From positions 62,001 to 126,000 of the forward strand of contig NZ_MWQY01000002.1 in NCBI RefSeq assembly GCF_002087085.1: DNA of 64,000 bases. The letters are read 5' to 3'. Source of the stretch: Marispirochaeta aestuarii (GTDB lineage Bacteria > Spirochaetota > Spirochaetia > JC444 > Marispirochaetaceae). Shown piece after piece: positions 52,396 through 54,480 of this stretch (the first letter of the stretch is position 1; each line of letters opens with the position of its first letter). Both the position numbers and the translations under genes were made by a program. The notes under the pieces were generated by a model. The model saw nothing but the letters and a program-made list of their open reading frames with translations. It was not told the DNA's origin and did not search any database.

Positions 52396-53475
52396 ATGAA
52401 GAAGGTTGGGATTATCAGTGCCGGTGCCTGGGGTACGGCCCTGGGTAAAATAATCGCTGAATTGGGCAATGAAGTCGTTATGTGGGACTTCATGACGGAC
52501 GTGGTCGACGACATTAATCATAACAATACCAACGGACGGTATCTGCTTGGTGTCAGGCTGCCTTCGAACCTGCAGGCAACCACGGATATTACCCTGGCCG
52601 CCGCGGACAAGGATTTTATAATTGTTGCAACCCCGTCCCTGTATATAATCGATTCGGTAAAAAAGATTGCCGCCATGCCGGGAGTACGGGAGGGAAACAC
52701 CTTTATCGCTGTGGTAACGAAGGGTTTCATATCCGGCGAAGAAGAATCAAAACTCCTTATCGAGGCCATTGAAGAGTTTCTGCCGGAGACCTACAGGAAC
52801 AACCTGGTCTACATCTCGGGTCCCAGCCACGCGGAAGAGGTTTCCCGGGGTAAGCTGACCGGGCTGATCGCCGCCTGCCCCAACGGGCGCAATGCCATAC
52901 GCTTCCGGGAACTCCTGACCGGTTCCACCCTGATGGTTTTTCCCTCCCTCGATATAGTGGGGGTACAGACCTGCGGTGCCGTCAAGAACGTCGTTGCCAT
53001 AGCCTTCGGAATGCTGGATGCGATGATGGAGTTCTCCGACAGTTTCGGCGACAACACCGAGTCTCTGCTTCTGGCTGCAGGCCTGAACGAGATCCAGCTT
53101 CTGGGAACAGCCCTCGGTTCCACCCACCCTGAAACTTTTACCTCTATTGCCGGTGTGGGCGACCTGGACGTAACCTGCCGCAGCCGTCACGGCAGAAACC
53201 GGCGTTTCGGCCGGGAGATCATCAAGGACAGGATACTCGCCCGCTTCAAGGATCTGGAGGACCTTATCCGTAATATTTCCAGCCTGGGATTCCTGCCCGA
53301 AGGAGCTGTGGCTGCAAAATTTGTTCATGAGATCGCCCGTCAGCGGAAGCTCAAGCTGCCTATCTGCGAAACCGTCTATTCCATTCTGAACTGCGAGGTT
53401 AATCCCTCCCAGGCGGTATCGATAATGGTGGAAAACCTTGGCGGGGCGCTTACGCAGACTATTCCGGACGCCTAG
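52396..53475 (+). CDS. gpsA: Glycerol-3-phosphate dehydrogenase [NAD(P)+]
   Basis: A 359-aa enzyme making sn-glycerol 3-phosphate for phospholipids. The cofactor loop reads IISAGAWGTALG, where the first glycine of the usual GAGSWGTAL is serine. Other landmarks are canonical: VVTKGF, ISGPSHAEEV, CGAVKNVVAIAFGMLD with the catalytic lysine, GVGDLDVTCRSRHGRNRRFG and LPICETVYSIL. It is closer to housekeeping GpsA than the copy at 7657, although slightly longer than E. coli GpsA (339 aa). It lies alone upstream of the tRNA-Cys gene. Confidence 0.9.
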   Translation: MKKVGIISAGAWGTALGKIIAELGNEVVMWDFMTDVVDDINHNNTNGRYLLGVRLPSNLQATTDITLAAADKDFIIVATPSLYIIDSVKKIAAMPGVREGNTFIAVVTKGFISGEEESKLLIEAIEEFLPETYRNNLVYISGPSHAEEVSRGKLTGLIAACPNGRNAIRFRELLTGSTLMVFPSLDIVGVQTCGAVKNVVAIAFGMLDAMMEFSDSFGDNTESLLLAAGLNEIQLLGTALGSTHPETFTSIAGVGDLDVTCRSRHGRNRRFGREIIKDRILARFKDLEDLIRNISSLGFLPEGAVAAKFVHEIARQRKLKLPICETVYSILNCEVNPSQAVSIMVENLGGALTQTIPDA

Positions 53476-53494: not shown

Positions 53495-53523
53495 TAGACA
53501 AGCCAATCGGGTTTTGGTATCTT
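53495..53523 (+). promoter_or_regulatory. Candidate tRNA-Cys promoter
   Basis: TAGACA (53495-53500), 17 nt, TATCTT (53518-53523), with the predicted start about 8 nt before the tRNA 5' end. Confidence 0.55.
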
Positions 53524-53537
53524 TTGCACCTGATTAC

Positions 53538-53609
53538 GGCGCCGTACCCAAGTGGTAAGGGAGAGGTCTGCAAAACCTTTATGCAGCGGTTCGAATCCGC
53601 TCGGCGCCT
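53538..53609 (+). tRNA. tRNA-Cys (GCA anticodon)
   Basis: A full cloverleaf is visible. The acceptor stem is GGCGCCG/CGGCGCC with discriminator T53609, the D-arm lies around CCCAAGTGGTAAGG, the anticodon stem GAGGT/ACCTT has loop CTGCAAA (anticodon GCA), and the T-arm is GCGGTTCGAATCCGC. The 3' CCA is not encoded. The last 14 nt of the gene recur in the tandem repeat that follows. Confidence 0.95.
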
Positions 53610-53840
53610 CTATATTCAAGGCCCGCAACAGCGGGCCTTTCATCATTCCTGCAAGGCGGGCGGCCATAGGCCTATCCACTCGGCGCCTCTATATTCAAGG
53701 CCCGCAATAGCGGGCCTTTCATCATTCCTGCAAGGCGGGCGGCCATAGGCCTATCCGCTCGGCGCCTCTATATTCAAGGCCCGCAACAGCGGGCCTTTCA
53801 TCATTCCTGCAAGGCGGTAGCCTCCGGCTATCCGCTCGGG
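53596..53840 (+). repeat. 79-bp tandem repeat carrying the tRNA-Cys 3' end and its terminator
   Basis: The block starting with the tRNA 3' end (CTCGGCGCCTC at 53600, 53679 and 53758) repeats with an exact 79-bp period three times; a diverged fourth edge (CTCGGG) lies at 53835. Each unit holds a hairpin, AAGGCCCGC/GCGGGCCTT with a 4-nt loop (53618-53639, 53697-53718, 53776-53797), followed by T, i.e. the tRNA terminator in triplicate. Units 1 and 2 share a GGCCATAGGCCTAT palindromic stretch. Copy 2 has one base change in the tRNA-derived part (ATCCACTCGG) and one in the hairpin loop. The rest of 53841-53994 shows no gene. Confidence 0.9.
53618..53642 (+). terminator. tRNA-Cys terminator (first of three copies)
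   Basis: A 9-bp stem, AAGGCCCGC (53618-53626) with GCGGGCCTT (53631-53639), and an AACA loop followed by T residues. Two further copies lie 79 and 158 nt downstream. Confidence 0.75.
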
Positions 53841-53994
53841 CCTTTATGCTCAATTTAAGCCGGTACATCCTTTACCGTTCTTTGCCATTGGCTCCGGTTT
53901 TGGATAAATTATAACAAGGAAGAGTTGAATCACAGCCTTCAGATACGCATCTCCTTTTCTTAGGTCCATCCCATACCAAAAGGAGAGTACGAGT

Positions 53995-54480
53995 ATGCCA
54001 AGCGAAAAGTTGATTGAGTTCCTCAATCAGAACCATGTTCACTACGAAACGGCCCACCATTTTGAAAACTACACCGCCCAGGAAACTGCAGCCTCAGCCC
54101 ACGTGAAGGGTAAGGAATTCGCCAAGTGCGTAGTGGTAATGCTCGACGGGGATCCCGTCATGACGGTGCTGCCTGCAAACTACAAGGTCGACCTTAAACG
54201 GCTTAAGCAGCTTACCGGATCGAAGTCAGCCTCTATTGCCCACGAGGAGGAGTTCTCCTACATGTTTCCCGACTGCAGCGTCGGAGCCATGCCCCCCTTC
54301 GGGAACCTGTACCATCTGCCGGTGATTGCGGATTCCGATCTGATGAAGGACGATACCATCACCTTCAACGCCGGAAACCACACGGAGGCCCTAAGAATAT
54401 CGGCGGCGGACTATAAACGGCTGGTCCATCCGCGGGTTGCGAATATTCATCGACGTCGCTTCAGGCCCTTTATTATGTAG
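53995..54480 (+). CDS. YbaK/EbsC-type aminoacyl-tRNA deacylase
   Basis: A 161-aa protein of the YbaK/ProX superfamily, which hydrolyses mischarged tRNAs. Typical features are FLNQNHVHYETAHH at the N-terminus, TAQETAASAHVKGKEFAKCVVVM with the conserved lysines, and a glycine/proline loop SVGAMPPFGN. Whether it acts on Cys-tRNAPro or on another pair cannot be told, although it lies near a tRNA-Cys gene. AAAGGAGAG precedes the ATG. Its 3' end overlaps manA tail-to-tail by 8 bp. Confidence 0.88.
   Translation: MPSEKLIEFLNQNHVHYETAHHFENYTAQETAASAHVKGKEFAKCVVVMLDGDPVMTVLPANYKVDLKRLKQLTGSKSASIAHEEEFSYMFPDCSVGAMPPFGNLYHLPVIADSDLMKDDTITFNAGNHTEALRISAADYKRLVHPRVANIHRRRFRPFIM

Follow-up and report, generated by a model that had tools for sequence, protein, structure and literature searches.

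A tandem array behind tRNA-Cys in Marispirochaeta aestuarii is probably a small form of a tRNA-tail cassette design that recurs behind spirochaete tRNA genes

To our knowledge, repeats built on the tail of a tRNA gene have apparently been recorded in a single case, the tyrT locus of Escherichia coli. The RtT repeats of tyrT and tyrV (RF00391, rttR/tpr) are 178-bp tandem units at tRNA-Tyr; in each, a folded core lies between a 5' arm complementary to the T-stem (GGGGAAGGAT) and a duplicate of the tRNA 3' end (ATCCTTCCCCCACCACCA). RtT is further characterised by a stable RNA of about 170 nt that is released. In the stretch behind tyrV of E. coli K-12, which served as a control, three RF00391 matches were recovered; in these units GGGGAAGGAT is antisense to the T-stem and to part of the acceptor, and the folded core is followed by ATCCTTCCCCCACCACCATCA, a copy of the tRNA-Tyr tail. 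The array described here, from a 64-kb stretch of the Marispirochaeta aestuarii genome (hereafter the window), likewise consists of tandem units 3' of a tRNA gene whose 3' end is copied in every unit, but it stands at tRNA-Cys and not at tRNA-Tyr. Moreover, whereas RtT belongs to one tRNA, the spirochaete cassettes occur at many tRNA isotypes and in many genera, and their core differs. Neither the window (at the gathering threshold) nor the 11 cassette loci searched (E up to 1) contain a match to RF00391; therefore, judged by sequence, RtT and the spirochaete cassettes have a plan in common but not membership of that family. Two further systems bear comparison. Elements that target tRNA genes leave att-site duplications, which resemble the cassettes in being direct repeats of the tRNA 3' end, but the cassettes have no island or integrase between the repeats, and they have folded arms and tandem units. 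RNAs of the 3'ETS-leuZ type are trailers of tRNA transcripts whose unique sequence pairs with small RNAs as a sponge; the cassettes would also be tRNA-trailer RNA that could titrate a regulator, but they are tandem and structured and carry copies of the tRNA tail. No description of spirochaete-type tRNA-tail cassettes was found in the literature searched, a body that left most subscription journals outside its scope.

The sole tRNA gene of the window is tRNA-Cys(GCA), at 53538-53610 on the forward strand (ARAGORN; 65.6 bits with the Rfam tRNA model), in which CCA is not encoded; the promoter-like element, the array and the editing-domain gene described below lie on the same strand. Its 5' neighbour is gpsA (52396-53475), and a promoter-like TAGACA-17-TATCTT with a TG before the second hexamer, a consensus match only, lies 14 bp 5' of it (53495-53523). 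The first gene past the array (53995-54480) encodes a protein with an aminoacyl-tRNA editing domain (PF04073). A reading frame past the Cys array of the sister genome of the same genus (G002; the window's own genome is G000) looks like the same gene.

The 79-bp tandem array noted at this tRNA in a first-pass annotation was confirmed by Tandem Repeats Finder at 53595-53817 (period 79, 2.8 copies, 97% matches), with a score of 432 that is far higher than that of any other repeat in the window. The three units, all of which had been called near-identical, are so only in part: unit 1 (53595-53673), whose first 16 nt are the real 3' end of tRNA-Cys, and unit 2 (53674-53752) share 97% identity, whereas unit 3 (53753-53831) has 87% and departs from the others past about 53817. 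The tRNA piece common to the units is 16 nt long rather than 14 nt (ATCCGCTCGGCGCCTC, at 53753-53768 in unit 3), and the copy in unit 2 (ATCCACTCGGCGCCTC, 53674-53689) carries one substitution (CCAC). Besides this copy, a unit contains two hairpins. Hairpin A (53618-53639, 53697-53718 and 53776-53797) is the strong hairpin previously taken for a terminator (AAGGCCCGCAACAGCGGGCCTT; also written AAGGCCCGCAAYAGCGGGCCTT), but TTTCATC follows it in place of a U-tract, and the terminator scan of the window made no terminator call for it. Hairpin B, which had been overlooked, is GCAAGGCGG..TATCCGC and comprises the T-stem 5' strand, an inserted hairpin that replaces the T-loop, and the T-stem 3' strand, continuing into the acceptor 3' strand that is the next tRNA copy. 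In unit 1 (53651-53688) it is composed of GCAAG, the T-stem 5' strand GCGG, the inserted hairpin, ATCCAC and the acceptor 3' strand, and it recurs in unit 2 (53730-53767); in unit 3 (53809-53845) the sequence is another one, GTAGCC-TCC-GGCTAT, whose homologue in the sister genome is element 1, and the pairing is kept. What had been described as a diverged fourth edge turned out to be the end of unit 3, with this different hairpin, a truncated tRNA copy (ATCCGCTCGG, 53830-53839) within the hairpin B span, and a degenerate terminator-like remnant (TTTATGCTCAATTTAAGCCGG.., 53842-53877) homologous to the strong terminator directly 3' of tRNA-Cys in the sister genome. The genome search proposed in the annotation found the 79-bp unit at one place only, the tRNA-Cys locus.

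The fold of hairpin B is retained at the tRNA-Cys of relatives. In the sister genome, gpsA also lies 5' of tRNA-Cys, and two units follow the tRNA, with a run of nine T at the first hairpin; element 1 there reads GTGGCC-TCC-GGCCAT, which differs from GTAGCC-TCC-GGCTAT of the window's unit 3 by a compensated change. Hairpin B sequences differ at the tRNA-Cys of a further genome of the genus (G001) and of two genomes from other families (G045 and G017), with the pairing kept in all of them. Where the T-stem of tRNA-Cys is CCGG/CCGG and not GCGG/CCGC, the copy in hairpin B has CCGG/CCGG too, and the same small form is found with CTGG/CCAG at tRNA-Val(CAC) of both G000 and G002.

The recurrence of this architecture at many tRNAs and in many genomes had also escaped the first-pass annotation. 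When exact copies of at least 12 nt of a tRNA's own 3' tail were sought within 650 nt downstream, such copies followed 10 of the 44 tRNAs read in G000, 5 of the 48 in G002 and 7 of the 42 in G049, a genome assembled as one contig; the pooled count is 22 of 134. The corresponding upstream search yielded one copy in all (1, 0 and 0, respectively), and tails of other tRNAs gave copies in 0.32%, 0% and 0.06% of trials. By inspection, these cassettes start with a terminator, continue with a T-arm antisense (GGGANTCGAACC) and a folded domain, and close with the sense T-stem and acceptor end. Tandem cassettes occur as two units at Ala-cgc and at Leu-cag and as several at Arg-cct. An assembly error at the tRNA-Cys locus is conceivable, but an array comparable to that of the window, with five units 185 bp apart, is present in single-contig G049. 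Further cassette types were encountered. A structured type, GCCCAAGCTTGCGGCAGG..CCGAGAGCAAGCGCAGCGG, stands in several copies 3' of tRNA-Arg(cct) and in one 3' of tRNA-Leu(cag) (L036, at tRNA-Arg(cct) of G000; L288 and L301 in G002) and falls outside the large family model described below. A type at tRNA-Pro starts with CGGGCTT, the complement of the acceptor end, and ends with CCCAGCCC (L044 and L029 in G000; L275 and L289 in G002); it is present in several tandem copies at tRNA-Pro(cgg) of G002. In G000, contigs end at or near tRNA genes (both ends of C40 and the starts of C3 and C14), at least some of them inside tRNA-tail cassettes, which suggests that such repeats break short-read assemblies.

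Many cassettes enclose a structured RNA of about 127 nt, here called the large form, which shares with the Cys small form the outer design and nothing else, so that the two need not be of common descent. A first covariance model (R1), built on seven large elements of the window's genome, found matches in 47 of 118 related genomes, spanning 32 genera, with up to 23 matches per genome and, in G049, arrays of five at the 185-bp spacing. Its best three matches in the E. coli tyrV stretch were the three RtT repeats (E 0.013-0.016), with the alignment confined to the outer stem. The structure was then revised on 84 aligned R1 matches (69 distinct). In the revised structure 79% of cells pair, and there are 768 two-sided changes, compared with 233 +/- 15.5 in shuffles that leave sequence relatedness in and with no more than 135 after sliding of the 3' partners. 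Watson-Crick pairs alternate with tandem G.A pairs in the second helix of the large form (J1 with L4). In helix P2 (A2 columns 14-39 with 116-126), tandem G.A (YGAR/YGAR) is recurrent and is swapped for Watson-Crick pairs between genomes, and the helix is perfect in G308 (GGGTTGAACCC/GGGTTCAACCC).

With the second covariance model, the large form was detected in 87 of the 393 phylum genomes sampled, including three from outside the class. Among 25 newly fetched loci, 24 lie directly 3' of a tRNA (Leu, Val, Ala, Met, Arg, Gly, Trp, Ser or Pro), with an exact copy of its own tail at 20 of these 24, and the remaining element begins at a contig end; in selected genomes, weaker model matches also lie 3' of tRNAs. 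A contig scan located large-form matches in Candidatus Marispirochaeta associata JC231 (L179 and L186) and in Spirochaetes MAGs as well. An exact core pattern searched against all GTDB species genomes had true matches in spirochaetes and in one bacterial MAG, and its matches in other phyla were scored as chance by the covariance model; against phage genomes, the large-element core gave chance matches only. Rfam searches of the window and the cassette loci returned tRNA, SRP RNA, antisense-of-tRNA artefacts and weak sub-threshold matches, and no model covers the large form. Trimmed cores aligned poorly, and a third covariance model built on them was discarded.

The arms of the large elements follow the tRNA behind which they stand: on average, 10.6 of 12 positions in the 5' arm agree with the antisense of that tRNA, compared with 8.2 for other isotypes. 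Core similarity has a median of 0.94 within one array, is 0.65 between different tRNAs of one genome and is 0.62-0.64 between genomes. Because similarity between the cores of different tRNAs barely rises when they share a genome, the cassettes look like old, locus-bound elements rather than freshly transposed copies, and recent transposition between tRNAs is unsupported by these values. Copy number and content nevertheless vary between the sister genomes, with a clean empty site. At tRNA-Asn, the tRNA of G002 is followed at once by GAAAAACCTGAGAGC..TTCTCAGGTTTTTTT, the empty site, whereas in G000 a cassette with a tRNA tail copy at its end precedes a terminator orthologous to that of G002; Pro-tgg shows the same empty site in G002 versus a cassette in G000. 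At both loci, the difference could reflect either insertion in G000 or precise loss in G002. At Cys and Ala-cgc, the order of unit and terminator is permuted between the two genomes, the terminator that is proximal in G002 lying at the distal end in G000, and the copy number of the Cys array differs as well.

These observations bear on the readings that had been offered for the array. Slippage or unequal exchange that simply copied the tRNA 3' end and the terminator region, leaving units with no function of their own, would agree with the 97% identity of units 1 and 2, with the 97-100% identity of neighbouring units in many arrays elsewhere and with the different copy numbers in G000 and G002. 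Because neighbours are often this alike and numbers differ in the sister genomes, unequal exchange is a plausible source of copy number, and this part of the earlier suggestion stands. It accounts for the number but not for the unit, leaving unexplained hairpin B, with its pairing kept across families despite other sequence and its coupling to the T-stem of its own tRNA, as well as the recurrence at many tRNAs and the covariation of the large form; as a full explanation, plain duplication is unlikely. The proposal of a triple terminator, or more generally of redundant transcription terminators 3' of tRNA-Cys, fares worse. Hairpin A is strong, the first hairpin of G002 has its run of nine T, and a good terminator starts many cassettes elsewhere; however, the window's own hairpins lack a U-tract and a terminator call, two units after tRNA-Arg in G308 (L322) have no terminator, the arrays of G121 (L352 and L358) have none between units, and the tRNA tail copies and hairpin B would have no role. 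We consider this reading very improbable. Small RNAs from the serial tRNA 3' ends, also suggested in the annotation, may exist.

An origin in integration, whether as att-site remnants of elements inserted at the tRNA 3' end or as tiny cassettes placed by a site-specific recombinase that acts on the T-arm, would yield both the exact duplication of a tRNA's 3' tail and the empty site seen in the sister genome. Integrase-like genes do lie directly behind tRNA-Gly(tcc) in G000 (L051) and G002 (L293), with a partial tail copy of 11 nt in G002. In the arrays examined, however, no recombinase gene was found within or beside the units, the inserts are gene-free and 60-200 bp long, the arms vary with each tRNA, and an antisense T-arm, a hairpin coupled to the T-stem and a conserved fold are foreign to ordinary att sites, so that we regard this origin as highly unlikely. 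Other candidates were set aside. The entire 79-bp unit is repeated without spacers, which agrees with the earlier dismissal of a CRISPR array, and its single genomic location argues against REP/BIME dispersed repeats. Guide-RNA readings (TnpB, IS110, CAST) and integron attC-like readings were weighed because the design combines a scaffold with a match to a tRNA. Neither an associated protein nor a conserved insertion core was apparent.

We favour the explanation that the Cys array is a tandem run of a small tRNA-tail cassette of the design seen behind other tRNAs, and we consider it probable. This layout is repeated behind many tRNAs of many genomes, with arms that follow their own tRNA and a fold that covaries. 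As proposed, a cassette would stand directly 3' of a tRNA gene and begin with a 3'-flank hairpin, often a terminator; in the element proper, a 5' arm complementary to the T-stem or T-arm would be joined, through a folded domain that replaces the T-loop, to a 3' arm copied from the T-stem 3' strand and acceptor end of the same tRNA. By pairing with the 5' arm, the copied strand may be kept from competing with the real tail in tRNA folding, and the same pairing may leave a stable folded trailer. The 3'-end copies would serve as direct repeats between which recombination gains or loses units, presumably by unequal exchange in the Cys array. As a terminator usually lies between the tRNA and the element, transcription of the elements may be poor. 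The folded domain of the large form is a conserved RNA, and its CsrA-type hairpin loops may bind CsrA. The Cys units would be a reduced form without such loops, proposed solely as a stable self-paired trailer, with recombination between the tail copies setting the number of units.

Loops of the form CAGGA(U/C/A/G)G or CANGGANG cap the two apical hairpins of large elements. The same motifs are known from CsrB, whose repeats read CAGGA(U/A/C)G (PMC7652899), and from the Rsm RNAs, with A/U-CANGGANG-U/A (PMC4353343). With its CAGGA(U/C/A)G and CANGGANG loops, the large element thus resembles CsrB/CsrC and RsmY/RsmZ, but it has two loops, is linked to tRNAs and has no Rfam match, and between a fifth and a third of large-form loops read CACGANG, which lacks GGA. 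At least one CA(N)GGANG loop occurs in 88 of 109 large elements from genomes not known to lack csrA, compared with 22 of 2400 mononucleotide shuffles. Of the 47 genomes with R1 matches, 46 have csrA, as do 44 of the 69 without, a contrast for which phylogeny could account. The csrA-less genomes G013 and G056 have elements in which both hairpins are missing, and GGA is absent from the loops of G402, which also lacks csrA, whereas GGA loops are kept in G311 (99% complete) and G426 (94% complete), in both of which csrA was not detected. The loops of the window's Cys units are ATA and TCC, with no CsrA-type loop among them. The large form is a candidate CsrA titrator, with a chance that we put at about one in three. 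A wider proposal holds that it represents a new, phylum-wide family of tRNA-linked structured RNAs that titrate CsrA, with RtT and the Cys array related to it in design, the CsrA loops having been lost from them or never present; this we regard as possible but rather doubtful.

The cassettes turn what was a curiosity of E. coli tyrT into a general design, found in tandem at many tRNA isotypes across spirochaetes, and the strongly covarying RNA that they enclose has no Rfam model. Their repeated tails make copy number an evolvable knob. In a literature search by title, no CsrA antagonist RNA was named for the phylum, and the CsrA-type loops offer a direct, testable candidate for such an RNA in spirochaetes. 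If the large form does titrate CsrA, the activity of this regulator would be tied to tRNA transcription in these bacteria.
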